64,000 nt of DNA from Cymbomonas tetramitiformis (taxonomy: Eukaryota; Chlorophyta; Pyramimonadophyceae; Pyramimonadales; Pyramimonadaceae). The stretch lies in NCBI GenBank assembly GCA_001247695.2, contig LGRX02029324.1, positions 1 to 64,000 on the forward strand. The letters are read 5' to 3'. The stretch's first letter is position 1. Each line of letters begins with the position of its first letter. Below the pieces are notes generated by a model. The model was not told the DNA's origin. It made no database searches and was given only the letters and a program-made list of their open reading frames with translations. The translations under genes were made by a program, and so were the position numbers. This document shows, one piece after another, positions 2,811 through 57,558 of the stretch.

Positions 2811-5800
2811 TTAGACAAGAGCTTGCTCAGCATCTTCTGTTGTAACGCCATCCATTGCGAACTTGCCCATGCTGAAGGTAAACATACCCACTCCAGAAGC
2901 TTCCCCTCCTCGCAACATCCTGGCTCTTGTCAAAGGGTTGCGAAACACCATGACCCACATGCATCTTCTGCCAATAGGTCCATGCTCCAAATGCCCAATC
3001 ACATGTAAACGTCCAGCGTGACACAGCTTACGAAAGTATTGTGCCCTGCTCTCTGTCATATCTGTCATGTAGTGCGATGGCACATGAATACAAGCCACCA
3101 CTCGGCTGGCCAGTACTGCCAACGGCAACGCAATATCCAGCACTGCGAACCAGGGTGAAGTTACCACTGCGTCACACACCCCATACTTCTCCTTCCAGGC
3201 TCGATAATTGCCCGGTTGTAAAGCATTAAGGGCTTCGTGCCACTTCAACTGCGGATTCCAATCATTATTCATGACCTTCAGATGAGGCCACTCCAGTGAC
3301 ATAACCTTGCCAATGACACCTGTGCCAGCCCAAGGATCCCATACCTGTGTGATCTTCTCCCAAGTCACCTCGTGCGCCAAACGCCTGACCTCCTGAGGAA
3401 CTGTCATCACCAACTCTAAGCCCCAATCCAGTTGACTGGCAATCTTCACCTGAGCTCTGCTCAGTTGTGTGACATCTCCTCTCTTCTGAACTTCCTCGGG
3501 GCTCATGGCCTGCACCGTGGACGTCTTGCGGAGACTTCTCGCGCGAGCGTGCTGTTCTGCACACTTCCTGCTCAAGATGGTACGATGGCCCTCATGCCAG
3601 AATCCTGGCATCACTTCTGTGATCACTCTGCTGAGCTCCTCCTGGCTTCCCCAGGCCACTCTGTCAGGAAGATTCCCCATGCTCCCTTCTCTGCTGAGCA
3701 TATGCCGCGAGCTCAGCGCCTGCCATGGGTCTTCACGTCCCGGCCTCACTGCACGATGCGGACCCACGTCTGCAGGCAACAATACCACATCTGATCCCAG
3801 CTTCTCTCTCAACTGCAACTCCATGGCCGCCATCTTGTCAACGATTGACGCGCTCACCTCGGCGGCAGCTGCCACCACAGTCCCACCTAAGCACTTGGGA
3901 CATTGCCAGTCCCCTTCAGGTACTCCATCCAGCGCCGGATTCAGACACCACGTGTGATAACCACGGTTACAGGTGTCACACAGCAACATGGCTGCCTCCC
4001 CATCTGTCCGCATACACACCTCACACGCGAGATGCTTGCTGGGAATGGCTGCACTGCAGTCGTACTGGTCTTTCACTTGTAAGTGACATGGCGCAATACT
4101 TTGTACTGTGCTCTTCTCCCGCAGCTTCGTGCTGTCCTCCAACACTACCACTCCATCTCTTTGCACCTTGACTATCTTCAGGATGGCTGACTTGGTGGCC
4201 ACCTCCATGCCAGAGCGCGGTTGTTGGCGTATATATACGAAATCGCCTGCCTTGAACTGGTGCGGCTTCGGCTCGTAACTGCCACTCCTCCTGTGCTCGT
4301 ACCGTAAAGTGTCGCGGTGCTGAGCGATCTCCAGGTTGCACCCTGCATGCACCATGAGCCTCTTCACGATGGCGGCTCGCTGTAACAGGTCATCAGCCAG
4401 TGTCTTCTCCTCCTGCTTCCCAAAGTCCAACTCGGGTCGAGCACGAAGATCCGGTGGCACCGTGGCTTCCTGAGCGAACAGCAAGGTGAATGGCGCCCCT
4501 CCAGTGGACTGCTGCCTAGCTGCGTTGTAGCTGAGTACGAGTGACCAGAGCATCTCATCCCACTCGAAGTCCAGGCCCTTGTCGAGGGCCATCTTCTTGA
4601 AGCAAAACTTGAGGGTGCGTACCACCCGTTCAGTCAAGCCATTGCTCTCTGGGGAACTCGGTGAAGTCACTCTTCGGTCAATGAGACACTGCTCGCATAG
4701 AGCAGAGAACTCACCTTCAAACTCTGTGCCCCCATCCACCAAACATTCTGCAGGCGCCCCAAACACGGATAGGACATGATAGCGAAATGCGTTGGCGATG
4801 GTGGCGGCCTCCTTGTCGGGGATTGGAACGCACACGACGAATCGCGTGTAGTGCTCAATCATGACCAAGACGCGTTGGTTCCCAGCCCTCGTGATGCGTT
4901 TCGTAGGCCATGCTAAATCCAGGGACCAGCGATACATGAAGGACTTGATCTCCAGCGGCGTGAGATTCGCCTCCTCCCGTGCATAGTGCGTCTTCACCCT
5001 CTGGCAAGTCTGGCACTGAGTGACCACTGCTTGCACATCCTGTTTCATGCCTGCCCAGTAATGGCGTTGCCACAACAGGTTCAGTGTCCGCCTGATGCCC
5101 CAATGGCCGGTCCTCTCATGGTGCTCACGCACCAACTGAATCCTGTCACAGGGCTTGGGCACCAGCAGCTCCTTACCACTGACGGTGACCATGTATAACT
5201 CGCCCATGAGCTCGTCCCAACGGTGACGCGCTGCCCTCTTCCTTACCCTGTGATATTCCTCCTTGGGCACCTCCACTCTTCCTCCTGTCTTGATCCACGC
5301 GAGGCATAGCTCGTCCTCGTGTATATCGGGGTATCTTTCTCGGAATGACTCCTGGTTGGTTACGCTGGCTAGCATGGCAACCATTCTCGTAGTGTCGGGC
5401 AGCTTAGGCAGCCTCATCTCTTTCTCCTTTGTCACTGGTGCCCATTCTGGGGCTGAGCTCGTCTCTGCTGGCTTGCCTCCAGGTCTTGAAAAGGCCTGCT
5501 GGTGACGTGCCTCGTAGCCCGCGAGCTTCATGGAGGCCATCTTCCACTGCCTGCGGCGTGGAACTGCGTCGGCGGTGCCTAGCCCCTGCGTACCTTTCTG
5601 TCCTTGGCTGCACATGCGTTGCAGTCGCTCTTCCCAGTCCTGATGGCTGAGGCGTCGCGCGACTTGCTGGGTGTAGCCGCTGGAACTGGTGATCCACTCT
5701 GCTAGTTGGGCTCGCACCGGCTCAGCCGTGCCCTCGGAGGTGGCAGCCACCTTGGTGGCTTTCACGATGGGGATGGCAACTAGCGTGCCATGTTCCTTCT

Positions 5801-8800
5801 CCTCACTCTCCTCACTCATCGGCAGTTTGGTCGTGCTGACCTCGGCAATCGCATACAATAGCTCCATTGCTCTTCGGTCCATAGCAAGGCCAAGCACTCC
5901 TGCCAATTCTTCGTCTTTCATGCCATGTGCCGCGCGCAGCTCACCTGCGCTGTACCCCATGGCCACTGCCTTCTCGTCCAGGTTGACCTCTCTGGTCTCC
6001 CCCACTTCATCATCATCTCCCTTCCTCACCACTGTGCCTGCGCGAGGCGCGCGAAAAGCACGAGAGTTTTGTGTCGCCAAGATGGTTGGCAATACTCTCA
6101 TAGGCTCTCCTACAACGTTGGCGGTGTAGTGAGGCTTCCTGTCTCCTGTGACGACCCTGCGCGGCTTCCAGCCTCGCTGCAGAATGTCGCGCACGTATCT
6201 GTCTGGTGGTCTGTCCACCCGCTCCATCACCAGATTGAACTGCTGATTCTGGAACAGATTGCTCCAATATGCTCGTAGACGATGCGCGTATGATCCCGCG
6301 CGCGCCGCGTCAAAGGACACCGGCTGGCCCACCACGCTGTTGATGATGGGGAACACCTCCTTCCTGATCTTCGAGTTCTCCTTGTGTGACAGCGGAGAAA
6401 CGTTTTCCAGCACATATGCTGGCGGTCTCTGAGGCTGCAGCTGTTGCAGCGTGGAGAGGACTCGCACTGCCTGGTAGAACAGTCTGCTGTGCATGCCCTC
6501 CAGACCAGCCAGCTTGCCAGCTGGTGACAGGTCCTGGCATGGATATCCACACACCATGACCCACTGCTCTCCACTCAATGCCCCTGCATGTACAAGGTCC
6601 ATGAGGCTGGTGTCTTCGATGTTGCTGGGCAGTTGCTCCAAGTGGGCTGCCTCGGCACGGAACAAGTCAGGATGACGGCGACTGAGCGCCATGCACCTGG
6701 CCCTGGCTACCGTCTGGCTGGACTTCGAGATGTCCTGGTAGAGGTACTTGTTAACCTTAACTCCGCAGCGCAAGAGCATCTCTAGTCCAGCACACAGGCC
6801 CCCACACGGCTCATAGCAGACCACGCCCTCTTCTCTGGCTTCCCGGAAGAAGCTCTTGTCAATCACTCTCGTGTCGATCTTCTTCGGCACTTTGAGCTTA
6901 CCACCCTCCATGGTCTCGTCGCCGTATATCGCTGGTGAACCTCCGGAATGCATACCCCTGATCGGCCGTACCTGGCTGAGGGCATCCCAGGCGACCCGAG
7001 TCAACCTGCCCGAGCACCTGGCCACTTCCGGGTGGTCAGTGTCAAACATGACCCCCTTGTTACACTCCCGCTCTTCTTGGTAGTGTACATCAAACAGTCG
7101 ATGGACTGCACTGGTCCCCAGCTGCTCCCTGACCATGTTCTCGCAGTAGTTGGCCACCTGAGCTTCTGGGCTCACTTCGGGGCCAAGTGGTGGCTCCCTG
7201 GTCACTTCCCAGCAAATGGCGTCTGTGAAGCAGCGCGTTGGCCTCTCGGCACGCCCCGCTTCCCTGGCTCGGTCCCCTTCACGGTCCAAACGGGCACCAG
7301 TCTCGTCTGCGGTGCTGGGCAGTGGATACCTGGATGGCACATCCGCGTTCTCATTCTTCGGACCTGGTCGGTACTGGACCGTGAACTCAAACTCCTGGAG
7401 GCTGATGGCCCAGCGCAGGTGTTGACCTTGTAGGTCACCCTTCTCCATGAGTGTTGTGAGCGGCGAATGGTCGGTGATCAGCGTGAAGTGGACCCCGTGC
7501 AGGTACTGTCGTAATGTGCGGATGGCCCACACCACTGCCAGCATCTCACCCTGGAAGCTCGCGTACTGTCTCTCGGTTTTCGACAGCGAGCGGCTGATGA
7601 CCACACAGATGTGTTCTACGCCATTCTCGTCCTTCTGCCCCAGCACTGCGCCAATGCCATGGTTGCTCCAGTCTGTGTAGAGGAAGATGGGCTTGCTGTA
7701 ATCAATGGGCTTCAAACATCTCCCCGAACACAGGGCATCCTTCAATGCTTGTAATGCCTGGTCCTGATCCTTCCCCCAAGCTCCCTTGACATCCAACACT
7801 TCCTTTCTGAGCAGGTCGTTCAATGGTCGTGCCATCTCTGAGTAGTTGGGTCCCATGGGTTCCCCCACCAGACCTTTGTAGTAGTTCATGAGTCCAAGGA
7901 TGGAGCGTACTCCAGGTTTGTCCTCGGGCTTGGGCAGCTCTTGGATGGCCTTGCACTTGATGTCCTGCGCGCCAATGGTGTTATAGCCGATGCGGTAGCC
8001 CAAGAAGTCCACCGTGGCTGACCCGAAGGTTGACTTGCCCGAATGCAGACGTATCCCTGCATCCCCCAAAGTGCGAAGCACGGCTTCCACATCCTTGATG
8101 TGCTGCTCAGCGGTGTCTGAGTATATGCACACGTCATCGACGTACGCCACCGTGCAGTGTTGCAGATGACGTAGCTCGTAGTCCATGATCCTGATGAAGG
8201 CTGCGGTTGCTCCAGCTGCTCCAAACGGCATGGATGTGTAGCGATAAAGCTGGTTGCCCCACCAGAACGCTGTCTTGTCCCTGTCCTCCTCAGTGGTCAT
8301 GGGAATTTGGTGGAACGCCTTGGTCGCGTCCAGGGTAGTCTTGAACTTGGCCTTGGCCACGCGCTGGTAGAGCTCTTCTGGACGGTGTGGTAACGTATTA
8401 TCCTTCAGCGACAACCGATTCGTAGATCGGAGGTCGACGCAGAATCTCGTCGAGGTCCACTGTCCAGTGTCGTGATCCTTCTTCCCTGCAACCACCACGT
8501 TGCTGGCGTGTCTGCAGTGCTGCGAAGCCGGCTCGATGAAGCCATATTCCAGCAGTTCCTTGCAGTGCAGGTCGACGATCTCCTGCTCTCCCGGGCTGTA
8601 CTTCCTCGGTCGTTGGTAAGCTACCTTAGTCTCGTCCTTGAAAGGGATGGCGAAGGTCGCATGTGTCGCGCCCCCATGGTAGCCTTTGATGTCCTGCGGC
8701 TTGTTGGCGAAGCAGTAGCTGCACCTCCTTACCACGTTGCGCATCTCCTCCCAATTCTCCTCGGTGAACTCGGGATGTCCTCCAAAGGTGGCATTGAGCT

Positions 8801-9662
8801 CGGTGTCCAGCCACGCGGCCTCGTCCTTGGTGACCCTGGTTGTGCCCCCTGGCTGTAACGTGTCCAGCACCGTGTGCGGAAGCACCTCGTCCTGCTCTGC
8901 CACCATAGCCTCCCATCCGGTGTCCCATAGGCGCGAAGACCTCTGGTCTTCCCAGGCGGTCCTGGTAGATCTGATCGGCGAGCTCGAGCACGTGTCCATC
9001 GTCAGCACGCCCTGAGGCTCCCCAGGGGCCACGACGGCCACCCAAGCAGCCACCGCTAGCAGCAGCAAAAGTTTTAAAATTCTGCCGGTACCCACTGGTT
9101 TAACTGGAGGGTGAAGGGTCAGTATGCAAGTCAACATCTTCCACCCCCCTTGCATACGGCCCAGGCCTCCTCCTGCAGACACGTAGACCACCAGCGCCAA
9201 GACTGATATCACATAGACACAGTGCGCCACTCGGTAGCAAGCGGCAGTGAACTGCAGGCGCTGCAGTCGAGCGGCAAAGCGCGGCTTCTGCATGCGCCGC
9301 GGGACAGCGGCCAGCGTAGCCGGCCCGGCGGCCAAGATCCGCTGGGCGACCGCCAGCGCGCGACCCACCTGAGTCTCCAGCGCGGCGGATGTGCCACCAT
9401 CTTGAACTGAGCCGGAGCATGGCAACCCATGGTGGACAATGTGGGCGCCAACCGTCAAGACGCACCCCAGAGTGCCGACCATGTGTGTGAAGTGCATGGC
9501 GAGCATGACGAGGCAGAACCGTATCAACGGCACGTACCACAGCCCACGCCGAGCGTGATGGAGCCCAGCTACCTCAAGAGCGCCCTTGGTCAACAGCAGT
9601 AGGTGCCTGGCCAGTGCCAACAGCACTCGGAGACTCGGAGAGGCGCCTGTTGATGTGCCCAT
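2811..9662 (-). CDS. Retroelement polyprotein: TM segments, RT, RNase H, DNMT, integrase, PHD, second MTase-like domain
   Basis: 2283 residues. Residues about 1-220 hold several hydrophobic segments. RT follows with YVDD near 505. RNase H has YTDWS near 657, GEM near 700 and TDH near 733. A C5 DNA methyltransferase spans about 945-1270: CGGLCAGLE (motif I-like), GYPCQDLS near 1039 (catalytic PCQ), ENV near 1087 and AYWSNL near 1130, a spacing and style closest to DNMT3. Integrase has an HHCC finger near 1511-1560 and catalytic D near 1579, D near 1648 and E near 1671. A Cys4-His-Cys3 PHD finger lies at about 1879-1924. The C-terminus has a Rossmann methyltransferase signature, DPWAGTG near 2107 and TSPWF near 2171. 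The frame is fully open, so the protein may be functional. The start is the first Met of the frame; it could instead be entered by frameshifting from upstream ORFs. Confidence 0.9.
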
Positions 9663-9927: not shown

Positions 9928-11025
9928 TCAGTGACGGGCGTGCCGGGCTGCAGCCTGCCCGGTGCCCCCTTGAAAAGGCCCCAGGGCGCTCTCCCTTCTC
10001 CTTTCCTCCCAGATCTCATCATAACTTTGGCGTCTCTGAGGAGCACGCGACGCGCCTTCCCTGGGGCTCGGAGATCTCCTCCTGCGCTGACCAACCCGTG
10101 GTGAACGCTGCTGTGCGGCACTCTCAGTTGGACTCTGCGGGCGCGCTGTAGGATGGCCTGGAGGTCGAGTGCCGACCTGCGCAACGAAGCCACTGGAACG
10201 CTCCGGGCTGCTGGGTGCTGTAGAGCTCGGGGTCGATGGCACGTATGAAACGGAGAAGTCCTGCTCTTGTGCTGCTGGAGGCACGGCTTCAGTCTGCTGC
10301 GTGCAGATGGAATGTGCCGGGGATCCCAGAATGTCGTTGATTGAATGGTGCTCAGGTCTCTGTGCCATGTTGCACTCCAAGCCCATGGTTGATATCCCGC
10401 CGAGAACTCGGCCAGAGTAGGGTGTCGGCGTGGTCGTGGCTTGCGTGCCACCACGACCATCAAGCCCCGGGCAGTCTGGCCCAAGCGTGCTCATTCCCGC
10501 TCCAATCCTCGCAGTTGCGCGGGCAGTACGAGGTCGCTCTTCATATTCTCTGATGATCGCCTGACGCGCCTGTATCGATTCCGAGAGAGCCGCCATGGTG
10601 AGGTGGTTTGCCGCGAGCTCGGCTTCCCCGTGCGCCAATCTGGCAGACAGCCCAACCAGTCTTTCACTGATGACCTCCACGCTGTCTTCATCCTCTGTCA
10701 GCGGCGACGGTGTTCTGGTGCGACCCGTGTGAGTGCTCACACCCTCAACAGCCGCGAGGTCGGAAGAGTATCCTGAGATGCTGCCGTCTCCCTCCTCACT
10801 TCCTGCATCCCCTCCCTCGATTGGGTCCAGGCACCTCATGAAGTCGTTTCGAAGACGCGCCTGCACCTCTGCCCGACGTGCCTCAGCTAGCAACGCCGGG
10901 CCCACCGAGGATGTGAACGCAGACAATGGTTCTCGGTGCATCACCGCCACCTTGTTCCAGGTCTCCCAGCTGCAGCAGTCGAACTTGCGCGTACCTGAGG
11001 AGAGGTACTCCAAGGTGAACGCCAT
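9928..11025 (-). CDS. Retroelement ORF of unknown function, 365 aa
   Basis: Overlaps the end of the protease ORF by 85 bp in the -1 frame, which suggests translation by -1 frameshifting or restart. It is Ser/Thr/Arg-rich with a predicted helical stretch around residues 115-160 (ERLVGLSARLAHGEAEL) and an arginine-rich C-terminal part (RVGQRRRRSPSP). I recognise no domain. A basic, low-complexity tail fits a nucleic-acid-binding structural protein. Confidence 0.6.
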   Translation of the reverse strand: MAFTLEYLSSGTRKFDCCSWETWNKVAVMHREPLSAFTSSVGPALLAEARRAEVQARLRNDFMRCLDPIEGGDAGSEEGDGSISGYSSDLAAVEGVSTHTGRTRTPSPLTEDEDSVEVISERLVGLSARLAHGEAELAANHLTMAALSESIQARQAIIREYEERPRTARATARIGAGMSTLGPDCPGLDGRGGTQATTTPTPYSGRVLGGISTMGLECNMAQRPEHHSINDILGSPAHSICTQQTEAVPPAAQEQDFSVSYVPSTPSSTAPSSPERSSGFVAQVGTRPPGHPTARPQSPTESAAQQRSPRVGQRRRRSPSPREGASRAPQRRQSYDEIWEERRRESALGPFQGGTGQAAARHARH

Positions 11026-13709
11026 GCTGCTGGGCCCCGCTCACTGTAGTAGCGATTGTCCTCAAAGAGGTAATACACGGCCTTGGACCGGGCGTTGGCA
11101 CGGGTCTTGAAAACCCGTAGGGTGCCCTGCCGTGGGCCATCGCTCAAATGGTCTCTGGCGATCCCCAAGAGCTGAGTGCGATCAACCAGATGCGTCATAT
11201 GTTTCTGCAAGGTGCCGAGGAGTCCTCCCGTGCAGCCTTTCGACTGCCCACCCAGAGGCAGAAACTCTTCCCTTCGTCCCACTCCTGCGGAGGAAGCGTA
11301 CCGGTGCAGGGTCTGGTTGCTGAGTTGCTGCGTGTGCACCCCCCTTCCTCGCTGCGCGAAGGGCTTCCCGAGCTGGAACTCGATCTTGCCCATGAAGCAA
11401 CGGTACTGGATGAGGAAGACCGTCTGTCCATGCAGCGCCATGAACTCCGAGATCTCTCCCAGATCCAGCCAGTTGGCTTCTCCAGCTGTGTTCTCGCTGC
11501 GAGTGGGCGACTCCGGCTCGTAGGTGCCCTGGAACACTGCAGCGTGGTAATCCAACATGGCAGGGTCGAAGACGCCGTTGGGCCAGGTTTGATGCCGTAA
11601 ACGAAGCGGTGCAGAAGATGGTGGCGGTGCGGAGCCAGATGGCCCTGCCTCATCCCCCCTGACCGTCTTCGACGTCTTGAGAGTCTTGGATGTGCGCACT
11701 GGAGGGTTTCTTCTGGCCCCATAAGTGTCCAGCGCGTCCCGTGCTTGCTCCTCTGTCTTGCATGCTCCGAGCATCACTCTCGGGTTGTCCCCCAGATGCA
11801 GGTACTCCACGGCGGCAGCGTTCGTGCTAAACACCTCGCCATCGCCTCCTTCCCCATCTGTCACCGGGTAGAACTTCCCCACCTTGTCCTGTGCGTCTGA
11901 CAGCGTGAGCTGCGGGATCACTTTCACATCCACGCCCTCCACACCAGTCACCTCCACGTCGTACCTCACCTTCAGTCGAGCTCGAAGGTCAGCGACGTCC
12001 ACTCGCTGTACATACTTTAGATGCTGGTACTGCCAGCGCTGGTCCTTCTCATAGTAAAAAGGCAGCTGGAACTCGCCAGTCATCTTGCCCATGGGGTTCA
12101 TGATGGTGACGCCTTCCATGGTGTGACGTACCATGCGCTCCATGAGATCCCATTGGGCGCGAGTGTGCTCGCTGAGTCCGCAGAACTGGCGCGCCACCTT
12201 GTCCCACATGAGCTTGCCCGTCACGACTCCTGGGTACGTCTGATGGGTGTTGAGGACCTCCTGAACACTCGCCATCGTGTACCTTCCTGCCTCCCGATGG
12301 GCACCACAGTCAGGGCGTGGGACCTGGTCGTTGTCCTTCCTGCCGCTCGGCCTCGTGGTCCAGGTTTCTGAGGGTATCTTCGTCTCCTTGTCAACCTTCT
12401 GGTCCACCAACGTAAAGTCGGGCCACAGTAGCTCCGTCTCCAGGATGGTCTTGTATTCTCCACATCGCGGGAACTTGACCTGCACAAATCCTGCGTCCAC
12501 ACCACCTCCATCGCCCTCCTCGCAGAGTGTGCACAGACGAGCATAGCCCGTGCGGTCGATGTACAGGCGCTGCTGAGTCCAGCTGCTCTCCTTGTCTTGG
12601 TGGTCCCACGGGTTCACTGCCATGCCCTCCCATGGCTGCACGCTGGCCAGCTTGAAGGCAGCTTCGCTCTCGGCCTCCTGTCTCAGCGTGAGGTCTGGAT
12701 AGCGAGGGTCTGACTGAGTTGTGGTCAGGCTGGCTGGCGTGCGGGACCCCCTCGTATCTGGCTCTTCAGCACTGGACCACTCAACTCTGGTCGCCACATT
12801 GGCTTCCCGCTGGCTGCGTGATGATGCTTGCAGCATGCCCAGCATCTGGTCTGTCAAGGACGTACCAGGCGGCGGAGGTTCGTACGTCGAGCCCTCGGTG
12901 TGTAAGCTGACTCGCCCATTGAGCTCGACTTGCATTATCGAGCTGGGTCTCAGGAAGCCCGCCTGCACCATGGACTGGCAGCGCGCCTCAAGTCTCTCCC
13001 TCTCATCCGAGTTGAACCTTCTCAGCCTCATCTCCTCTAGCCATGACGCCAGGCTTTCCATCAGCTCGGGGTGGTTTCGCGAGAATGCACAAGGTGCAGG
13101 CGCACACCTCTCCCCTGCGAGGGCCAGACGGTCTTCTCCCCTTGCGCCCAGGGACACTGCTTCACGTGGTGGTAGCTCGCAATCATCAAAAGCGGGGGCA
13201 AGAGTGCGCGCTGTCGTGGCATCAGCGTCGAAAATCTCGGTCGCCAGGCACACTCTCGGGTCTTCATTCCGCTTGCTCCTTGCATCGACGGGCGGCGTCA
13301 ACTCGATCAATGGCAACGTGACCTTCTCCTTCATACCCAGTGACACCGCGGCCTCAGAAGTAGCAATGCCTCTGTAGAGGTCGATGGTCAACTTGAGGGC
13401 GTTCTTCAGGGGTCCAGTGCCCACCAAGAAGTCCCACGTCGTGTCATTGGTGTAGGTGACGAAGGCGTGGAGCCGATGCAGAGTCATGTACGGCGTGCCC
13501 GCGGCGAGAACCACATCCACGTAGCAGTACTTCGTGAATTCCGCAGGGCTGCCATCACATCTCGCCACCCTGGCCCCTGTCTCTGCATCAAAGATGGTCA
13601 AGCCCAACCTGTTGGCTGTCCTGATTGGGATAATGTTGCAGTTGGCCCCCGTGTCCAGGAGAAGCGCTTTGTACAACATAAGCAAGCCTCCAGAGGCCAT
13701 CAGCGCCAT
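10941..13709 (-). CDS. Retropepsin-containing ORF, 922 aa
   Basis: The N-terminus carries an aspartic protease: LLLDTGANCNIIP near residues 17-29 is the DTG active site, followed by VGTGP near 95-100. The frame is open upstream of the Met, overlapping the end of the preceding ORF, so a -1 frameshift from 14821-13730 could feed it. The remaining roughly 800 residues are not recognised; they are acidic and proline-rich in the middle (YEPPPPGTS). It sits between gag-type ORFs and the RT polyprotein, so protease is encoded apart from RT. Confidence 0.75.
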   Translation of the reverse strand: MALMASGGLLMLYKALLLDTGANCNIIPIRTANRLGLTIFDAETGARVARCDGSPAEFTKYCYVDVVLAAGTPYMTLHRLHAFVTYTNDTTWDFLVGTGPLKNALKLTIDLYRGIATSEAAVSLGMKEKVTLPLIELTPPVDARSKRNEDPRVCLATEIFDADATTARTLAPAFDDCELPPREAVSLGARGEDRLALAGERCAPAPCAFSRNHPELMESLASWLEEMRLRRFNSDERERLEARCQSMVQAGFLRPSSIMQVELNGRVSLHTEGSTYEPPPPGTSLTDQMLGMLQASSRSQREANVATRVEWSSAEEPDTRGSRTPASLTTTQSDPRYPDLTLRQEAESEAAFKLASVQPWEGMAVNPWDHQDKESSWTQQRLYIDRTGYARLCTLCEEGDGGGVDAGFVQVKFPRCGEYKTILETELLWPDFTLVDQKVDKETKIPSETWTTRPSGRKDNDQVPRPDCGAHREAGRYTMASVQEVLNTHQTYPGVVTGKLMWDKVARQFCGLSEHTRAQWDLMERMVRHTMEGVTIMNPMGKMTGEFQLPFYYEKDQRWQYQHLKYVQRVDVADLRARLKVRYDVEVTGVEGVDVKVIPQLTLSDAQDKVGKFYPVTDGEGGDGEVFSTNAAAVEYLHLGDNPRVMLGACKTEEQARDALDTYGARRNPPVRTSKTLKTSKTVRGDEAGPSGSAPPPSSAPLRLRHQTWPNGVFDPAMLDYHAAVFQGTYEPESPTRSENTAGEANWLDLGEISEFMALHGQTVFLIQYRCFMGKIEFQLGKPFAQRGRGVHTQQLSNQTLHRYASSAGVGRREEFLPLGGQSKGCTGGLLGTLQKHMTHLVDRTQLLGIARDHLSDGPRQGTLRVFKTRANARSKAVYYLFEDNRYYSERGPAAWRSPWSTSPQVRASSTAAAGRPGTRWR

Positions 13710-14851: not shown

Positions 14852-16303
14852 CTAGCTGGAACCAAGCCTGCTTTCGTGGAATCCAGCAGGCATCTTGACG
14901 TGTTTATAACCACTCCTGCACTGCTCGGGATCGGACTCATGCCAGCCCCCTCCAAAGCAGCGCAAGCACTTGGGCTTGTCGTTCGTACGCACGCCCTCTG
15001 CTGGCGGTGGCGTCTTGTTGTAGGAGGCCTTCTTAGCTCTTTCGGCCACATTCACCTCCTTCTTCATCTTCTTAGAAGGTGATGCATCTACCTTCTTGCT
15101 GTTCTCTGGTTCGCCTGACTGCGCCACCTCAGAGGACTCAATCTTCTTGATCGAGTTCTTTATGGCCTTGAGGTCAAGGCCATGCTGTCGCGCCTCCCAG
15201 GTGGAGTACTGGCAGCCACATCGTCTGGTGATCTCCTGGAGGAAGGTGAGGATCCAAGACTCTGCATCGCCCTTGAGCTTGTCTTGAACCTCGACGATGG
15301 CCTCCAGGTCCTTCCAGGTCACCCGATTGGGTGGCGGGAACTGTGCCCTCAGTTGCTCCTTCACCCGCGTCTGGAAGATCTTGATGCGCAGGTTGTCTAC
15401 GCAGTCCTCGATGAAGGTACGCAGCTCTTCATCGCTCAACACCTTCCCAGTGTTGAGCTGCATTTCCCTGCGTTGGCACATCTTCATGTAGGTCAGCCCA
15501 TCCTGCCCCACCTCTTGTGGCTTCTGTGTCAACAGATCCACTTTCTCTTGAGTCCCTTTCATCATGAACTTCTTGTCAAGGGCAGCGATGAAGCCCCTGA
15601 GCGCGTAGAAGTACTGGGTATCACGGGTGCCATCACGTCCCGTCAAGCCTTTCAGGGAGGTTCCATCAGTCAGATATTCGTCGGAAACCTCCCCTTGGGT
15701 GTCTTGGTTCGTCACCGGCCTCGCTATCACCCACGTGGCGCCAGTGTTCATCTCATTGAAAGGGGGCCTAGCGCATGGGATGGTACCCTCGAGTGGGCCA
15801 TGCTCGCTAGTGTCCTTCAGGACTCGGTCCATGTTGGAGGTCACTACCCCCCCTCTTTCATAGTTCTCGCGCCACCAGCTGAGAGCTTGTGAGTTCTCTC
15901 CAGCCAGACACGCAGGGATCATGTCCCACAGGTATTCAAAGTCAGGGGGAGTCTCTCTCAGGGTCTTCATCTGAGCTTCGGTGAGGGTGCCAGCCCCGGA
16001 CCTGAGCCTCTTCCTGACGTTGGCGTTGTGCTGCCGTACGAAATTCTCGCACATGTCGGCAAACTCCCTCAGGAACTTGGGCCGATCCTCTTCCTTGGTG
16101 CCCGTGTAGTTGGGCAGTGTACCAAGGTTGACACGAGCGTAGTCAGTATACTCCATGTCTTCTTCAAAGATTACTAATGGCTCCTGGGCTTGGGCTTGCA
16201 GTTGGACTGGTGCTTGTGCCTCAGGCTGTACTAGTGCTTGTGCCTCAGGCTGGCCACCGGCAGCCCCTTCCTCTCCCTCCAGCTCTGAGAAATGCTGGCT
16301 CAC
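14852..16303 (-). CDS. Gag-like protein with variant zinc knuckle, 483 aa
   Basis: First ORF after the upstream repeat and leader. The N-terminus is rich in Gln/Ala/Pro repeats. The centre (NYTGTKEEDRPKFLREFADM and following) has the helical character of retrotransposon capsids. The C-terminus has a Cys-His motif, CLRC then five residues, His, six residues, Cys, near residues 447-463. This is a spaced-out form of the CX2CX4HX4C zinc knuckle. It ends at a UAG followed by in-frame coding sequence. Confidence 0.75.
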   Translation of the reverse strand: MSQHFSELEGEEGAAGGQPEAQALVQPEAQAPVQLQAQAQEPLVIFEEDMEYTDYARVNLGTLPNYTGTKEEDRPKFLREFADMCENFVRQHNANVRKRLRSGAGTLTEAQMKTLRETPPDFEYLWDMIPACLAGENSQALSWWRENYERGGVVTSNMDRVLKDTSEHGPLEGTIPCARPPFNEMNTGATWVIARPVTNQDTQGEVSDEYLTDGTSLKGLTGRDGTRDTQYFYALRGFIAALDKKFMMKGTQEKVDLLTQKPQEVGQDGLTYMKMCQRREMQLNTGKVLSDEELRTFIEDCVDNLRIKIFQTRVKEQLRAQFPPPNRVTWKDLEAIVEVQDKLKGDAESWILTFLQEITRRCGCQYSTWEARQHGLDLKAIKNSIKKIESSEVAQSGEPENSKKVDASPSKKMKKEVNVAERAKKASYNKTPPPAEGVRTNDKPKCLRCFGGGWHESDPEQCRSGYKHVKMPAGFHESRLGSS

Positions 16304-16399
16304 TCGTATCGCCCTCTGGGCACGCCTCTCTGCCCGTTGCTGTTCCTCGCGGTCAGCCTTGGATTCCGTTGCTACCTTTCTGGTGAAGAAGAAATACTG

Positions 16400-17000
16400 G
16401 TGTGAAGGCTCTTTTCACTCCACACTTCCCAGCTTACCAGTACGGATGAATCCGTCCCTGGCCTCACCTTTCAGTGCTTTGCTCTAAGTAGCAATCACTG
16501 CCAGCATAATCTCGTCCACGACTGGTGAGCAAGGTTCCATCTGTGACCCGGTCTTATATTGGCTCTCCCAGATGTCCAGCAGGGTTGCCTCTGCACTTAG
16601 TGTCTCTGGTCCACGCAGTAAGTCAGTAGAACGCCAGCATGAGTCAGGTGACCACAAAGAATGCTGTCGTGAAGATGCCCACTGACAGTCCTGTTTCGCT
16701 CCACGCCTTCAGGCGTACCAGTACGGATGAATCCGTCCCTGGCTTTACCGTCTGGTGCTTTGCTCCAGCAGGATGTCACTTCCCGAAATAGCCCAGTACA
16801 TAATTCTCAACGCTGCAATCATGTTCGTAAAATTAGCAACTGGTTCTGCTGTGACCGCTGTCGCTGTACTTCGCAAGACTGGTGAACTTCGAGTGTCGCA
16901 ACAGCCTGCTTCACTCAACCTCTTCCAAGGCTTACCAGTACGGATATATCCGTCCCTGGCATCACCATTCAGAGGTCTCGTTCTTCAGGACTGCTGTTGA
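16400..17000 (-). repeat. Three-copy leader repeat with a hyphenated palindrome
   Basis: The leader between the upstream LTR and gag has three diverged copies of a roughly 80-100-bp unit centred near 16440, 16720 and 16940. The most conserved core reads CCAGTACGGATGAATCCGTC (third copy GGATATATCC); its GGAT and ATCC arms form a short hairpin or a dimeric binding site. A CTCCA-type stretch precedes each core and GCTTTGCTC-type sequence follows two of them. Likely regulatory or packaging related. Confidence 0.75.
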
Positions 17001-17047: not shown

Positions 17048-17436
17048 TTTGAAAAAGACTGTTAATTACAGTTCTGACGCAGTCGCACAAGGGCAAGTCC
17101 ACAAATGTATATCTTTACAAGCATAAGAATACTGTATCTCATTAATTATCTCATAACACTGCTGTTTTCGCGGTCTCAAGCGAGTCCTGGTTATTCTCGG
17201 AATCACTGTTACGAAGGCAAAACAAAAATGAGCGTCTGCTCACTCTCACTACGCCGCCCTACTTATTCTCGCTATCTCCAAACAAGTGTAACACCCATCC
17301 GTATTTCCGTATCTCGTCACTGTCATAACTCCTCGCGCGTATCGTACTGCGCGTGTCATACGTTCGTCACAGAGACTGCTACAGCAAGTGTCACAACCCA
17401 GCTGAGGTACACGATAAGCCGTGGTTTGTGACAGCT
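17048..17436 (-). repeat. LTR-like repeat Y, upstream copy
   Basis: 389 bp, same length as 2164-2552 with one difference noted. It precedes the leader and gag, as expected for a 5' LTR. Unlike the other end it has no adjoining X repeat. Confidence 0.75.
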
Positions 17437-19275
17437 TACTACAAAGCGACTGGTGCTCGTTGATGATTTTGGACGTGGTGGTTCACCAGTGCAAAAGGGG
17501 GGAGTGAGACGAGACACGTGCCTAAAGAGTTTTGCGCGTGGGTGTTCATACGTAACGAATTCGGTCGGTTATCCGTGAGATCGTTGCTGCCAGTGTGAGT
17601 TCAACTTAATAAGATGTGTTCCAGCGTGAGTACATATGAAAGAGTTGTTTTGAATTTCCTGCACCAATACGGGACTGCTAGGCGTGCGATACGAATTCGC
17701 TGCGATGGTACGTAGTCGTGACACAGTAAACACGGCACCATCATGGGAGCTGGTACACAGTAGCTATTCATGTAATCCCCCAGACATTCGATCCACGCGA
17801 TTTATGACCGAGCACGCACAAAATATCAGCCAGAGCGCCAGACCATCCAACATTTATCCATTCAAGGTCAACGGAGCGCTATAGATCATCCATACCGGGT
17901 TTCAGTATAATAATATAAAGAGGTATCAGAAACTTTATATCATCATATATAACTTTTTATTAGATGATCCATACGCCATACCTGTATTCGTCAGATCAGA
18001 CATTCAATACCTGTGTGGACTATCTCTGTCCACTCAGTGGTAGACAGACTACGTTCTGTGAACGCCAATCTTACGCCAATCTTAACGCCGCAGTCGCGGT
18101 CAGTCGCGGTCAGTCGCGGTCGGCATCTTCAGACATCATACCAAATCGTCGCGTCGCGTGGCTCGTCGATGACATCTTTAATGGGATGGCAACATATAAA
18201 TGGCTAACGCCATCTTCAGGTGCTAGGGTATCGGGCATTAATAAAAAAAACAGTCATAACTTTTACAACATTTATTTTTTGGTAGTACCGCCACCTCGCA
18301 TGCGTTTTTTTACAAAAATACTACACGTCTCCTCCTTAAAAGGGCATCCCCTAATACACATTCATTGAAATTTCACTCGCACGGACCTCCCCTTGGGGCC
18401 CAAAACATTGTAAGGACCTTAAAGTTAATTGATACTTGTGTCGTTTACCTTATTTTAGAGCGTTGGGGATTAATCACTTTTACTTTTTGTTTTTTTGGAC
18501 AAAACAATTCTTGCAAAAGTAACTGGAACGTGTGTAGAGGGTTGACCGTTACAAAAACAATAAAAGGTTCACGGTAGCCTTCGTAGCTTTGCACCCGAAA
18601 AATGTAGTGCTTTGGGGGAGGGCTTTGAGTGAAAGCCTCCATACATGTTTCGAGTCTCATCTCTTGAAATTCGACGTTTTATATACCCCCTATGCCTTCT
18701 GCGACACACCTCCGTCCTTACCAGTTACCACTATGAAGTCTTTTAAACCAAGTCAACCCAAAGCTTATACTACAGTTAGAAAGGGAACTTCCCGCTGCAC
18801 AACACATATATAATGCCATGCACTTAACTTGACCACCATGAATGTTGCATCAGCGCCGTGTGTGTATGCGCAGAGTTGATTACTTGTTGTGCATGCGTAT
18901 CCACTCTCGTCATCGCCACAGGTATGCATGTGACAATATCAAAACTGCTTGGGCGCACTTTTCCCGAAATTGCATTTCTGTTCTCACTGCAGGTTAGGTG
19001 TTCTATCAGTGCAGTCTTGCCAATTAAAAATTTGAACCAGTTTGGCTGCTGTATGTACCTTCTCAAGTACTATCAGTCAGTCTATATAGCATATATAGAT
19101 GTCTCACATCTGCATGATGAGGGTCAAAAGCAAAAAATACAGGCCCTCGAGTCTTTTAAGGCAACCAAAATACAGCAGTAGATGCCACTCTCCATCGCAC
19201 CCCTTGCTCGCATACGATTGCACAATTAAATAGAGTGGTGGGTTAGCAAGGTTACTACTGTACTCTCACAGATGC
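17437..19275. other. Intergenic host sequence
   Basis: No convincing gene. Contains three tandem copies of CAGTCGCGGT near 18092-18121 and AT-rich stretches around 17890-17960. The interval ends at the stop codon of the JmjC gene. Confidence 0.4.
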
Positions 19276-23869: not shown

Positions 23870-24690
23870 ACATCGTATTGAACACATATTGCAGGCATAT
23901 TGCACGCGTATTGACAATAAATGTTCAATACAATAAAAAATGTTACAATATGTGTGCAATATGCCTGCAAGCGCTCCAACATGTGTGCAACATAGTATTA
24001 GAATGAGCCCTCACGTATTGGAGACATATTGAAGTTCTGATGCAGAGAGTTATTTCAATATGCCTTCAACATATGTGTAGTATAGGGTTGGAGACATGCA
24101 CCATGCATGTCGCAAACACTATGAAGGCATGTTGCAGACATATTGCCCACATATTGTATACATATTGTATACATATTGTAAGTCAACATTCAATATGTTG
24201 GATACACACTGCGGACCTACTGCATACGTATTGAACATGTAAATTCAATATGTTGTATATATATTGTGGACCTATTGAATATGTATTGAAACGGAACATT
24301 CAGTATGTTGGATACATACTGCGGACATATTGCATACGTATTGAACATGTAAATTCAATATGTTGTATATATATTGTGGACCTATTGAATATGTATTGAA
24401 ACGGTACATTTAGTATATTGGATACATACTGCGGACCTATTGCATACATATTGAACATGAAAATTCAATATGTTGTATATATATTGCGGACATATTGCAT
24501 ATATATTGAAACGGAACATTCAGTATGTTGGATACATACTGCGGACCTATTGTATACGTATTGAACATGCAAATTCAATATGTTGTATATATACTGTGGA
24601 CATATTGCATATGTATTGAAATAAAAGTTGCCTATGTTGGATATATATTATAGACCTATAGCATACATATTGCACATTTGCAACATGCAG
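23870..24690. repeat. Left subterminal repeat array of the CACTA element
   Basis: Dozens of short motifs related to CAATATGTTG, GACATATTGCATA and ATTGAACATG occur in both orientations. At 24230-24620 a longer unit of about 120 bp (TTCAATATGTTGTATATATA followed by TTGTGGACCTATTGAATATG) repeats three times. In CACTA elements such arrays bind element-encoded protein. Confidence 0.85.
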
Positions 24691-26911: not shown

Positions 26912-29900
26912 ATGGTCCGAGGAGATCAAATTGTTCATGGTGAAAAGCGACCTCGCCATGAACGATCCCCTCAATCATCATCACCAAGTGATGCGGAGCG
27001 ACATCGAACCGGCTTGCCTTCGGCTAGAGCCGCCGCCCTCGTCCAAGGGAAGGCGGCCCCCCCCGTACAACAATCTTCGTTAGCCAAGCGCGCGATGAGA
27101 AATCCCGCGCAAGGCGGGTGCTTAGCCGATCGAGAGCCGATCAAACCTTCCAATGCTCAGGAGGGTACATCGCTCAAACCCCCTCCCAATATCAAGCTCA
27201 TATTCCCGGAAGGTTGGAGTACCGCGGAAGGCTTCCGCGACCCGGAGTATGAAACGATTACGAAGAAGGAACGCCTTTTGGCATGGATTGCGCCTCCACA
27301 TCTTCCAATATCTACGAGGGAACTGGAGTTGTCCGCGAGGTAGCACCCTTTCTCTTTCTTCTCGACGTTGAGGTTGTGTCTTTCTTGCTTCACAGGACTC
27401 TTTGCTACATGTATGCAACATGGTTACCATATGTTGCATACATATTGAGATTATATTGTAGGGATCCTGGAACACATTGCAGGAAAGTCGATGCGCACTA
27501 TGTGGAAGTGGACACGGTATGGCATCATAAGTGGCTGCCAACGCGACTGCTCCCGCACGATTTCTCCAGATTGGCGCACGATTTATCTCCAGACAATACC
27601 GCGTGGCCGACTTGGTTACCACCTTCCGACATCTTGGAGCTAGAACCGGCAACGGTAACCTTTAAGGGGAAATCGTTTCGACTTGTTCCACCGGTGCCTA
27701 ATTGCTTGCAACGGATTGTCGAAAGGATTCGTGGCATGCAAGAGGCAAGGTAAGGGACTCTCGCGGGGCATGATTTCCCTCCCACCATTCATCACGTGGC
27801 TCGCTGCAATAGTGCTGCAGTACGCTATCGTGATGGTTGCAGCATGTTGATGGGATGTTGAAAACATGTTGGGACGATATTGTGCAGAGATGCGGGCGAG
27901 GCGCCCCCGAGGCGCACGAGGCCCAAAGCAAGGAGTCCCCCCCGCCGCCCAATGCTGAGGCACCCACGAGCCCTCCACTAGCCGGCGGGAGTGCAAGGTA
28001 AGGGATTGTTTGCAACATGTTTGCAACATGCATCAACATGCCTGCAACATACCACATATATGTTGTATTACTTGTGCACGTGCCATGCAGGGCCGCCGGA
28101 GAACTACACGCATGAGTTTGTCAAGCGAATGGACGAAATACACGAGGCACTTTCCAAATCAGGTTGGTCGAAAGCGGACATGGCGGAACGTTTCTCGGCC
28201 ACCGGATTCAAGTTGCCCGCCGCATTCGCAAGGTTGTCGTACTTTAACTTGGCGTTGGATTGGCTCTATGATCCTATGCACGAAATCATGAACTTGGGAA
28301 ACAGGCTTGCGACAACGCTGCCTGGGCTGGATTTCAACGAGGCCGCGCGCAAATTTGCCGAGGAGGAGGGCCTGCACCCAGAATGGGGGCAAACGGAGTG
28401 GGTGCAGAATTCGAAAGGTGAGTTTTGTATTAGTGCAACATTTCTGTAATTGTGTTCAATATGTCATACATGTGTTGACGGTATACGGCAACACGGACAG
28501 GGGAACCGCATGAGGTGTACAAAATGACAAACGGTCCATGGGGGATCCCACCGCGTCCGAAGGCTTCGACCACCTTACGTTCTCGGGAAACAGCACTCGC
28601 CTTCTTGAAGGAGTTGCGGGGAGTCACCCGGTGGGGCGATGGGCATAAGCATTTGTTGCGCACCTCAACCGCCTCCAACGGCGCAAAATACGCAAAGCAC
28701 CTCAAGGCGCATGCGGCTTTGAAGGCTTTCGAGTCCAAGTTGTTGGCGGTATTGTCCTCTTGGCCTCGCGATGATGGTGAAGTCGACAATGCGGCGCTGC
28801 AGGACATTGTGTCCAAACTGACTATCATCATACGGGAATGCACTGCGCATTCCATAGAACCTCGGGTACGTATTCAATGTTGGTGTGATATGAGTTCCAC
28901 ATGTCACAGGTATGTTGAATATATGTTACAAACGTATTGAATCGTACGTGCAGGATATGGAGTATTTGAGAGAGCAGACCAGACTTTTCTTTGAGGACTT
29001 GGAAGCGAATGGTCCTCCACATTGGCTTGCAATCAACACCCATAAAATCTGGCACTGGGCCGATCTGCTCCTGCGATTCGGACCTGTGCGTGAATGGTGG
29101 ATGTATGCCTTCGAGTCCATGAATGGCAAGCTAGCTAGGTGGGTGAAGAACAATGCGTTCCCCGTGGCAAGCATCATGAACGGCTATCTAAGGTTGAAAA
29201 CCTTGCGCTCCCTACGAGGCATCCTGACCATGCTTTTGAACCGAGAAAGAGCTACTGCCGGCCGTGTCCCGCGGGCTTTGATGGCGGGCCCCGCTCCCGG
29301 CATCGTGGTCACTACCTTCGGGGAGAAGGGCAAGCCATTGGAGCTAACGTCCTTGGAGATTGACCAACTGACCCGCTGGATGCGAGCGAGTATTCCCGCT
29401 TACCGAAAGCTTTTTCAACAACATGCTGAGTACGACCTGTTCCGGCGGAGGTGCAACCTGCAAGCTCGCACGCATGTACTATCTGTAGTATACCTGCAAC
29501 ATATTGTCAACTTGTTTCTGTATGTTTATCATATATTGTAAGTATACTAAGAATATGTTGTCATCACAGGGAGAATGCCGCGCGCTCTAAACAAGCACTG
29601 CGGTACCGACAAGAGGTGGGTGTTGTGCCCGCGATCGCGTTCGGTCCATTGGAGGACCCTGAAGGATGGCTTGGTCGTCAATACACGGCTTACGAGAAGT
29701 CGCTCATGATGGGTCCCGAACCCATGTGTTCCAAGTACAACAAGGTGAACATCGGCGGTGTCTTCTATCGCACTAGAGACGGGGACAAAGGGAAAGTGAC
29801 AACCCAGTGTTTCGTCCGCGCATCCTTCCCCAAGAATGATGCCGATGCCGATGACGAGTGGGAGGACAGGTACGACCTCAACCACCAGTTTGCATGCTTC

Positions 29901-30502
29901 TTTGCCTTTTCGTATATCTCTGCAACATATATGCAATACGTCCCCAACATATTGAGGGTATGTTGTACGTATATTACAAAAACATTGAACATTTCGTGCG
30001 CAGGTATGGTATCATCAACGCCATTCTGCGGGTTAGCATTGGCGGTGTGCTCTACACTTTTTTAAAGTGTGATTGGCTACCCGTGCCCACGGAAGCTCAG
30101 ATCGCAAGCTTCAAGCTGAAGAACTCCATCCTCGGCGTGGACAAGGTGTCCAAGGCTTACTACACCTTCAACCCATGGGACACCTCCAAGTACACTATGG
30201 ACAACCGAGAGCCCTACCTACTGGCCAATCAAGTCCAAGCGCAAGTAGTGATAGTCAAACACCCCTGCATGGATTCAGCGGTGATACTTGATACGAGCGA
30301 CCGCAATATGGAGAAACTTGCACTCGTTGATAGGCCCGTAGGTAGTGATGGTCACTTTGACACATGCGGGAAGTGTAGAGTCGGTGGCGAGCTCCTTCTG
30401 TGTGAGAGGGCAGGCTGCAAAGAGGCTTTGCACGTGCGATGCGCAGGGCTCACCGACATCCCCACTGGAATGTGGTACTGCAGAAAGTGTGATGACGCAT
30501 AG
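26912..30502 (+). CDS. CACTA-type transposase C-terminal region with PHD finger, multi-exon
   Basis: Coding segments with GT/AG borders and continuous phase: 28091-28417, 28501-28865, 28954-29450, 29570-29869 and 30004-30502. Earlier segments 26912-27339 and 27462-27749 join each other in phase; a link exon near 27888-27997 does not resolve (stop after a 7-C run). YDPMHEIMNLGN matches the end of the tnp2 domain. WWMYAFESMNGKLARWVKNN matches DUF4218. GIINAILRV and FLKCDWLPVP resemble DUF4216. The C-terminus is a Cys4-His-Cys3 PHD finger (CGKC, CERAGC, HVRC, CRKC). Start and N-terminal catalytic region are not seen. Confidence 0.75.
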
Positions 30503-43015: not shown

Positions 43016-44449
43016 TTAGCCTTCATAGGCAGCTATAATGTCTGCTGCATTGGTCAGCTCTGTGGCTTTGACCCAGGTGTCATGCTCAGGACCGTAGCCT
43101 GCATATCGTACTAAATAGTATTTGACACCTCTAGTGAACTTATCCGAGAGTATGTGTGATATCTCAAATAGTGGTTGCCCTTCTTCGGTGATCATCTGTG
43201 GCAGAGGCAAAGGTGCTTGGATCGAGTCATTGTACAGCTCTAATCTGGAAACAGGCTGTACCGGATGAATACGGATATCAAGATTTTCGAAATCTAACTC
43301 GTATGCACGTCCATGGCTAAGCACTTTGGAAATAGTGAACGGCCCAATATATGGCTGCTTAAAGTGTCTGCCTGCCTCTGTCAAACCAGTCCATTGTATA
43401 AACTCGGTCCGTAAAAGAACTTTCTGCCCGACTGCGAACTGCTTAGGCATGTGAGTCTTATTGAATCTGGCTTGGCTAATTTCTGCTGCTCGGAAAATGT
43501 TGTCTACCGCGTTGGCATGAACAGCCGAGTACTGGTCAAAATGATCTCGAATAGCTTCTTGTATTCGGAACAGGAGCTTCTGGCGGAATAGTAATAACCA
43601 GATCATGAGGCGAGAGTGGTTGCGCCATCGAGTCGAGATAAAATGGTGAATAACCAGTTGATGCAGAAACGGTTTTGTTAATTGCAAACTCCACCAGAGG
43701 CAACTTGTCCTCCCACGAATTGGCTGAAGTATCATTGCAACAACACCTGAAAATGAAAATGCTACTAATCAGTTTGTATACCAGAGGATGGTGAAATCAT
43801 ATCATGAATAAACAATTTGAAAAAAATACCTGAGGATGTCCTCAATGAAGGCATGGCTCCTCTCATTGGCAGCATTTGACTGTGGATGGTGTGATGACGT
43901 CATGGACAATCTCGTACCAGTAGATTTCCACAGTGTCTGCCAGAATGTAGAGGTGAATCTGGGGTCTCGATCTGAGATAATGTTCCTCGGAAGACCATGG
44001 AGCTTGAAGATATGCTGCATATAGATAGAAGCAGTATGCTGAGCTGTCCAGGTCATGCTGAAAGGAATGAGATGACAACGATGGGAGAATTGGCACATTA
44101 CCACAAATATACTGTCGTGCCCATTAGTGGTGATAGGCAGATCAGTGATCCAATCAAGAGATACATCAAGCCATTTTGTCTTAGGCACAGAATATCGTAT
44201 GTGTGCCTGACCAAAAGGCTTGTGTCGCCTCGTTTTCTGGCGCTGACAAACGGGGCACTCCCGAATGTACTTGATAGCTGCCGTTGTCATTCCTGGCCAA
44301 TAATACCGGCTACGCAGAAGATGACGCATGCGATTTTTGCCTACATGACCAGAAATAGTGGCTGAGTGGCACTCATGAAGGAGAATGTGGCGAAGCTGTG
44401 TGATCTCACCGTCATCTGTGGGGACTTTGGCTGTAGGTGGAATGTACAG
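43016..44449 (-). pseudogene. Chromovirus integrase with chromodomain, interrupted
   Basis: The zinc finger (HECH, then CPVCQ) lies just downstream of a UAG at 44450-44452. The catalytic core WLDVSLDWI, NIISDRDPRF and HHPQSNAANE supplies the D, D and E. A probable intron follows, then WEDKLPLVEFAIN. A further frame change occurs before the C-terminal part (RAAEISQARFNK). The C-terminus is a chromodomain (YYLVRYAGYGPEHDTWVKA), which in chromoviruses targets integration to marked chromatin. The nonsense codon and frame change make this copy inactive. Confidence 0.85.
43747..43829 (-). other. Probable 83-bp spliceosomal intron in integrase
   Basis: The frame stops at both sides unless CCTCAG|GTATTT to TTTTCAG|GTG is removed. 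Splicing restores a typical integrase passage (EDILR then CCCNDTSANSWED). The GTATTT donor is also used by exon 1 of the host TRM7 gene. Confidence 0.6.
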
Positions 44450-45340
44450 CTATCTGCCATATATGGTCTTGCGGTAGATCAACCCCTGAATGAGCTCGAA
44501 GTTGTAGCTGCTGACTGACTGTGATGAAGTCGATGATGTCAGCTTAGCCAAAATAGTCTGTGCAAATGTATCACGATCATATTCGGATATAATGATGTCG
44601 TGTAGCTGATGAGCTGATGAAGAAGATATAAGAGCAATGAATGTAGGATCTGCGGATGGAATGACTTCACTGATGTCCATGTTTTGAAGACAATCAGTAA
44701 GTTCAAAAAGTGTAGAGATACGCGTGAGTGTGTCTGCAACCTTATTCTTCTCGCCAGCAATGTGCTCTATACGGAAGTTGTACTCAGAGAGCTCATCCAA
44801 CCACCGTGCCTGTTTGGGGCTCAGTGTGGATTTGGTCTGGAAATAAAACAGTGGCTGATGATCTGAGCGTACAATAGTCTCAGGAGCTCCCAACAAGATG
44901 TGGCGAAAGAATCGGAAGCCTTCCACAATGGCAAATAGCTCGATCTCAGGAATAGGCCAACGTCTCTGTGTATCGGATAGAGTGACGCTGTGATAGCCAC
45001 ATGGCTTCATACCTTTTCCTTGATCATGGAGTAATACTTGGCCAACGTGTGTGCCTGATCCATCGACCTCCAAAATAGATGGCAGTTTCTGATCTGGAAG
45101 TTGTAATACTGGAGCGTTACAGATGGCACTTTTGAGGTTATCAAATGCCTGCTGCTGCTCAGTTTCCCAGACAAACTCTGCATTATCTTTAAGGAGACGA
45201 TTGAGAGGTTCGGCAACTTTGGAGAACTTTGGTATGAATCTCCTAAATTGACCAACCAACCATGCCCAAGAATGACCGAAGGGATGACTTGCCATCTGTA
45301 GCCATACGGCGTAGAGGCTGCTTTCCAACGGTAGGACCAT
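44450..45340 (-). pseudogene. Chromovirus RNase H region
   Basis: Covers the end of the RT thumb (RRFIPKFSKVAEPLNRLL) and RNase H (ILEVDGSGTHVGQVLL, IVEGFRFFRH, RSDHQPL). Joined to the RT ORF by a frameshift at about 45245-45260 and ended by an in-frame UAG at 44450-44452, beyond which integrase continues in the same frame. Part of one broken pol gene. Confidence 0.85.
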
Positions 45341-46793: not shown

Positions 46794-46902
46794 CTGCTGA
46801 AACTGTAGTGTCAGTCTGGATAGGACTTCCTCTGAAATACTCTCTATCTGGCCACTTGCTTCAGTGGCATTTTCTGGCTGATCTACCCTCGGGGTGCTCT
46901 CA

Positions 46903-57538: not shown

Positions 57539-57558
57539 GTGCTTGCGTATGCATTCCT

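Follow-up and report, generated by a model that had tools for sequence, protein, structure and literature searches.

The capture of DNMT3 by retrotransposons was published in 2018 for the dinoflagellate Symbiodinium and the charophyte Klebsormidium nitens (de Mendoza et al., PMC5890265), and a 2025 survey cites retrotransposon DNMT3 as an earlier finding (PMC12344493). In the first of these hosts, SymbioDIRS-Dnmt3 carries a Dnmt3-class domain in its pol and shows the A-coding-B-A-B order of repeats given for DIRS elements, and such DIRS-borne domains conferred de novo CG methylation in yeast; in the second, a single open reading frame (ORF) of KnitGypsy-Dnmt3 holds both a Gypsy-type pol and a Dnmt3-class domain, the latter with its key residues kept, and the repeats are described as DIRS-like with Gypsy domains (PMC5890265, Fig. 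4 legend). Other DIRS elements unite split repeats and a tyrosine recombinase with a methyltransferase of another kind, the Dam-like adenine methyltransferases (PMC5890265). Here we describe a retroelement on the minus strand of a 64,000-nucleotide stretch from the prasinophyte Cymbomonas tetramitiformis (contig LGRX02029324.1, positions 1 to 64,000, hereafter the window), for which an earlier note had proposed a DNMT3-like enzyme captured in pol, rightly adding that such captures were already on record. We give about even odds (roughly 0.5) to the reading that it is a Ty3/Gypsy-type element of a green-algal group that has long carried a DNMT3-class enzyme, in which an active de novo methyltransferase would mark the complementary DNA (cDNA) or the insertion site and a PHD finger would guide integration.

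Judged by description, the Cymbomonas element would fit KnitGypsy-Dnmt3, with which it shares a Gypsy-type pol, a Dnmt3-class domain and DIRS-like repeats. The two differ in their hosts (a prasinophyte here, a charophyte there), in the PHD finger, which the main text of PMC5890265 does not mention, and in a second methyltransferase-like domain, of which we found no mention for KnitGypsy-Dnmt3. No K. nitens protein was recognised among the homologue matches, including those of a protein search that combined DNMT and integrase. SymbioDIRS-Dnmt3 is set apart by its dinoflagellate host and by a tyrosine recombinase in place of the rve integrase. As far as our searches show, prasinophyte and chlorophyte DNMT3 elements with a PHD finger are new to the literature searched, and so is the second methyltransferase-like domain; no report of such a domain beside a retrotransposon DNMT3 was found there. 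The earlier note mentions neither of these two domains, nor the split repeats. The pol ORF is composed as follows:

2811-9662, minus: pol ORF, 2283 amino acids, with reverse transcriptase (RT), RNase H, DNMT3-class domain, integrase, PHD and C-terminal methyltransferase-like domain
9024-9533, minus: three hydrophobic, membrane-segment-like stretches, pol 44-62, 145-163 and 195-213 (Kyte-Doolittle scan)
7989-8396, minus: RT core, pol 423-558 (Pfam RVT_1, 2e-21)
7389-7703, minus: RNase H, pol 654-758 (Pfam RT_RNaseH, 1.4e-32)
about 5808-6830, minus: DNMT3-class C5 cytosine methyltransferase domain, pol 945-1285
6516-6548, minus: motif with the catalytic Cys (homologue alignment)
6396-6416, minus: motif VI, YVLENVS (homologue alignment)
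6255-6296, minus: further DNMT motif (homologue alignment)
4989-5147, minus: integrase zinc-binding domain, pol 1506-1558 (Pfam Integrase_H2C2, 3.7e-16)
4650-4931, minus: rve integrase core, pol 1578-1671 (Pfam rve, 1.2e-6, under the curated cut-off)
3891-4025, minus: PHD finger, pol 1880-1924 (Pfam PHD, 1.2e-10)
2814-3680, minus: C-terminal domain, pol 1995-2283, with the Rossmann fold of class I methyltransferases and a lean towards the amino-methyltransferase type

Pfam places RT, RNase H, DNA_methylase (PF00145), integrase zinc-binding domain, integrase core and PHD in this order along pol. RNase H and integrase thus flank the methyltransferase, as the earlier note had placed it, and pol reads open from end to end. 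Since the order RT-RNase H-integrase is that of Ty3/Gypsy elements (H2C2 strong, rve under cut-off), pol is of Ty3/Gypsy type by its domain order; we restrict the term to pol because the element does not have two full long terminal repeats (LTRs). Pfam scans of five minus-strand ORFs of the element detected an rve integrase and no tyrosine recombinase; in pol, Pfam detected no ADD or PWWP domain. The hydrophobic stretches sit between protease and RT; among 13 relatives scanned, they recur in, for example, P0003, P0004, P0007 and P0031, and P0033 has none.

On the evidence of profiles and predicted fold, the captured domain belongs to the DNMT3 class, with its catalytic residues retained. The similarity to the C5 methyltransferase profile is significant, DNMT3A/B being the top match both by profile and by fold, and the domain is nearer to DNMT3 than to HhaI on both counts, and than to DRM and DNMT2 as judged by profile. 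It differs from the DNMT3A/DNMT3B catalytic domain in sequence, the fold rows being 19-22% identical, and in its place within a retrotransposon polyprotein. The motifs that mark C5 enzymes, numbers I, IV (with the catalytic Cys), VI (EN), VIII (RxR) and X, follow one another in the correct order. In an alignment of 80 rows (the window plus the 79 of 82 matches that passed a 70% coverage rule), the catalytic Cys is kept in 73 of 74 ungapped rows (6 gapped), the Glu and Asn of ENV in 75 of 75 (5 gapped) and both Arg of RxR in 76 of 76 (4 gapped), so that the catalytic residues are by no means lost in all other copies. Eighteen of these rows are labelled Cymbomonas, comprising CYMTET-named proteins, the window and the EukProt proteins P0008, P0027 and P0078 (assigned by identity): 11 read PCQ at the catalytic motif, one reads EGV, without the Cys, and 6 are gapped, meaning that the motif is deleted in some Cymbomonas copies. 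Chance motifs as the source of the methyltransferase signal were ruled out by Pfam, profile and fold, and descent of the C5 domain from bacteria or phages was rejected on DNMT3 profile scores that exceed those of bacterial enzymes. Viral contigs contain 279 stretches encoding a C5-domain relative, and the best 80 of the 279 are all 23-31% identical to the query. CpG depletion, considered as a methylation footprint of the element, proved not to be diagnostic.

The closest homologues are themselves Cymbomonas tetramitiformis proteins, P0001 (98% identical) and P0002 (90%) over the queried region. Further relatives carry the label Haematococcus lacustris (P0057, P0059, P0061 and P0077) or 'Chrzof1' (P0083), which we take to be Chromochloris zofingiensis, and many more stem from metagenomes; no host DNMT3 was recognised among the homologue search matches. 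Conservation was compared domain by domain with 19 relatives chosen from the 82. Against the 14 distant ones, the DNMT domain is 38-43% identical, RT 34-41% and integrase 38-44%, with the linker behind the DNMT domain at 15-25%. Against the 5 close Cymbomonas relatives, the DNMT domain (68-69%) is lower than RT (78-84%) and integrase (77-79%), and the linker, at 38-44%, falls well under it. Pairwise distances are correlated between DNMT and RT (r 0.76) much as between RT and integrase (r 0.78) in the 61 proteins with at least 80% of each domain, values reached by 0 of 2000 permutations; with Cymbomonas left out, the correlations are 0.64 and 0.70, again with 0 of 2000 permutations. The alignments A1, A2 and A3 comprise 16, 17 and 4 sequences. 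As far as these comparisons of sequence go, the DNMT domain is a constrained and long-held part of this element group, and one capture before the lineages split, with joint descent since, would be the simplest reading; relatives without a DNMT domain would escape notice, because the searches began from that domain. Taken together, profile, predicted structure, motif conservation and the distances shared with RT and integrase support the proposed capture of a DNMT3-like enzyme in pol.

At its C terminus, pol carries what is likely a second methyltransferase, a proposal that rests on structure prediction and on three motifs:

3318-3338, minus: DPWAGTG
3261-3269, minus: NND
3147-3158, minus: SPWF

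The predicted structure of pol 1995-2283 is a Rossmann methyltransferase with motif I (predicted local distance difference test 82, predicted template modelling score 0.82), and DPWAGTG, NND, ALQPGNY, SPWF, HVPSHY and GRRCMW are blocks conserved among relatives. Because Foldseek superpositions were poor (O- and other methyltransferases on top, with a root-mean-square deviation above 5 in all 50 rows shown), the fold reading leans on re-alignment, and absence from the fold lists was not counted as evidence. There, the top Z of 12.9 is shared by the Listeria putative class I enzyme lmo1582 and METTL5, followed by restriction-modification M subunits (up to 12.4) and M.TaqI (12.0). Most of these top matches methylate adenine amino groups. 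Since Z declines little, still standing at 10.5 in row 50, and other classes are interspersed (KsgA, TrmR and MtmC lie between), the amino type is a lean drawn from fold and motifs. Motif IV of amino-methyltransferases is (D/N/S)PP(Y/F/W); its second Pro is replaced by Trp (SPWF) in 15 of 42 rows, the window among them, and SPPF occurs in 3 of 42. Owing to this departure from motif IV, we do not class the domain as an amino-methyltransferase, though it may act like one; it also differs from M.TaqI, type I modification subunits and METTL5 in an identity of 11-15%. Of the 42 rows (41 of the 82 matches plus the window), 30 had all three key stretches, and 17 of these, with the window among them, satisfy a simple motif test and 13 do not. 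Sequence searches of the domain gave little: in Pfam only PGA_cap (0.0083, under cut-off), in NCBIfam no match, and in the PDB nothing significant (best E 0.041, a ribosomal protein). No prokaryotic or viral relative was confirmed among 22 pattern matches in genome contigs and 15 in viral contigs. The region is hardly recognisable in several relatives (17-29% where aligned), and we read the domain as dispensable in part of the lineage. Its pairwise distances agree less closely with those of the other domains (r 0.47 with RT, 0.45 with integrase and 0.50 with DNMT). The C-terminal domain would most likely be of the amino type (N6-adenine or N4-cytosine, on DNA or RNA), or alternatively a decayed enzyme that now only binds. 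Ahead of this domain, a conserved LMPGxW..H stretch (about 3558-3650, pol about 2005-2035) matches histone H2B at E 0.13, which is not significant.

The ends of the element are marked by the following repeats:

17450-17464, minus: flanking 15-bp direct repeat, other side
17048-17436, minus: repeat A, first copy, 5' end of the element (1 mismatch to 2164-2552)
2776-2784, minus: polypurine tract GATGGGGGA, purines except the T (read from the sequence)
2552-2776, minus: repeat B, first copy, directly after the purine tract
2164-2552, minus: repeat A, second copy
1940-2164, minus: repeat B, second copy, 3' end of the element (2 mismatches to 2552-2776)
1906-1920, minus: flanking 15-bp direct repeat ATCAACGAGCACCAG

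On the minus strand, this one copy thus runs A, leader and coding region, purine tract, B, A, B. A-coding-B-A-B is the same order as in DIRS elements, and a permuted two-LTR circle would match it equally. The A copies differ at 1 of 389 positions, a CpG transition, and the B copies at 2 of 225, both transitions. The 15-bp flanking repeats lie 13 and 19 bp from the element ends and have no third match in the window at up to 2 mismatches. The usual tRNA primer site was not seen, because no TGG occurs in the 60 nucleotides counted from the final bases of the 5' A repeat, and the hairpin with which repeat A opens does not clearly exceed shuffles in stability (z -0.67). For the ends only, it is a serious prospect, somewhat short of an even chance, that we see an ordinary LTR element whose LTR is B+A (about 612 bp) and which entered the genome as a permuted two-LTR circle, or a locus that was rearranged or misassembled: the first B with the second A resembles a full LTR on its own (TGTTGAG...CTTTTTCA) and reads TG...CA right behind the purine tract, as an ordinary 3' LTR does; a two-LTR circle opened within one LTR would yield the order seen; and the split repeats are known from a single copy of the element. 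The DIRS-like repeats stated for KnitGypsy-Dnmt3 (PMC5890265, Fig. 4 legend) argue against this alternative. As it stands, the locus does not hold two full LTRs, the B+A unit being complete at the 3' side and represented by A only at the 5' side. A wider proposal, which we regard as doubtful, is that PHD finger, DNMT3-class writer of 5-methylcytosine and amino-type methyltransferase (N6-methyladenine or N4-methylcytosine) form a self-contained chromatin kit in one polyprotein, belonging to a widespread, old green-lineage group with Ty3-type pol and DIRS-like split repeats despite an rve integrase; split repeats together with such an integrase would, if true, imply unusual DNA synthesis and insertion.

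As to what the captured enzyme does, methylation of the element's own cDNA is the leading candidate mechanism, its timing, target and benefit being what we infer. The DNMT3-class domain would act as a de novo cytosine methyltransferase inside the particle or the pre-integration complex, on fresh double-stranded cDNA or at the insertion site, and the PHD finger behind the integrase would read histone H3 tails and steer integration. Chromodomains guide integration in chromoviruses. A new copy would then arrive already methylated, resemble host DNA and be tolerated, at the cost of reduced expression. Two observations weigh against an active enzyme. The Pro of PCQ is missing in 52 of the 62 rows not labelled Cymbomonas (ECQ 40, SCE 7, ECK 3, ECT 1, DCS 1) and retained in 10 (PCQ 8, PCE 2), and KnitGypsy-Dnmt3 gave no detectable methylation in yeast, a result that its authors call inconclusive because human DNMT3B failed too (PMC5890265). 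Both would suit a domain that is no longer a DNA methyltransferase, or is one just in some sublineages, and that has been retained to bind DNA or to oligomerise within the integration complex, much as DNMT3L is in mammals. We consider this unlikely: the Cys, Glu and Arg, needless for a pure scaffold, are near-invariant in ungapped rows, and the window copy has PCQ. Methylation of RNA (genomic RNA or primer tRNA) rather than DNA is less probable again; a similar role has been proposed by others for SymbioLINE-Dnmt (PMC5890265), and the ribosomal RNA N6-methyladenosine enzymes METTL5 and KsgA are among the fold neighbours of the C-terminal domain, but the C5 domain is nearest to DNMT3, not DNMT2. 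That the methyltransferase is a neutral passenger acquired by chance hardly deserves weight, since it is conserved like RT and integrase across distant relatives, even though capture of host genes by retroelements does occur.

Upstream of pol, the coding region is not one open frame, and the earlier note's impression of an intact copy holds for pol and fails for the gag/protease region:

14852-16414, minus: gag-like ORF (no Pfam match), which runs on into the next ORF in P0001 and P0002
13730-14851, minus: ORF in the gag frame, one stop codon apart from gag
10941-13709, minus: ORF that begins with a weak aspartic-protease signature (Asp_protease_2 0.0077, gag-asp_proteas 0.0095, both under cut-off)
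9928-11025, minus: ORF without a Pfam match, placed between the protease-like ORF and pol in a different frame

The stop between gag and the next ORF is not present in P0001 and P0002; the protease-like and later ORFs are in other frames, and the aligned P0001 and P0002 shift frame at the same places. These breaks may reflect damage, frameshifting or splicing, and the P0001 and P0002 models may contain predicted introns. The leader (16413-16982, minus) holds a 72-nucleotide repeat in three copies, 68-100% alike, with a common hairpin GCCAGGGACGGAU..AUCCGUACUGGUA (z -5.3 for one copy, -1.8 and -1.9 for the others), possibly a packaging or dimerisation signal.

Elsewhere in the window, a second Ty3/Gypsy-like element extends over several frames at 43016-47874 (minus; protease and RT at 45246-47009, chromodomain at 43019-43768), and a 1486-amino-acid open frame with RT and RNase H at 53117-57577 (minus) is probably a non-LTR retrotransposon. 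DUF4218 and NSD-like PHD matches in adjoining frames at 28894-30502 (plus) are perhaps a transposase gene with introns. Tandem repeats include about 11 units of 55 bp (24085-24689) and five of 31 bp (839-993), and a 36-nucleotide repeat recurs at a spacing of 55 bp in 1-91. Rfam (gathering thresholds) and ARAGORN gave no match over the window.

These results suggest that retrotransposon DNMT3 extends beyond the two published lineages, being constrained in a group with members from a prasinophyte, a chlorophyte and many metagenomes. The element copy is young enough for experiments, and with a parasite that would itself write the mark that silences it, the question of silencing or camouflage becomes directly testable.
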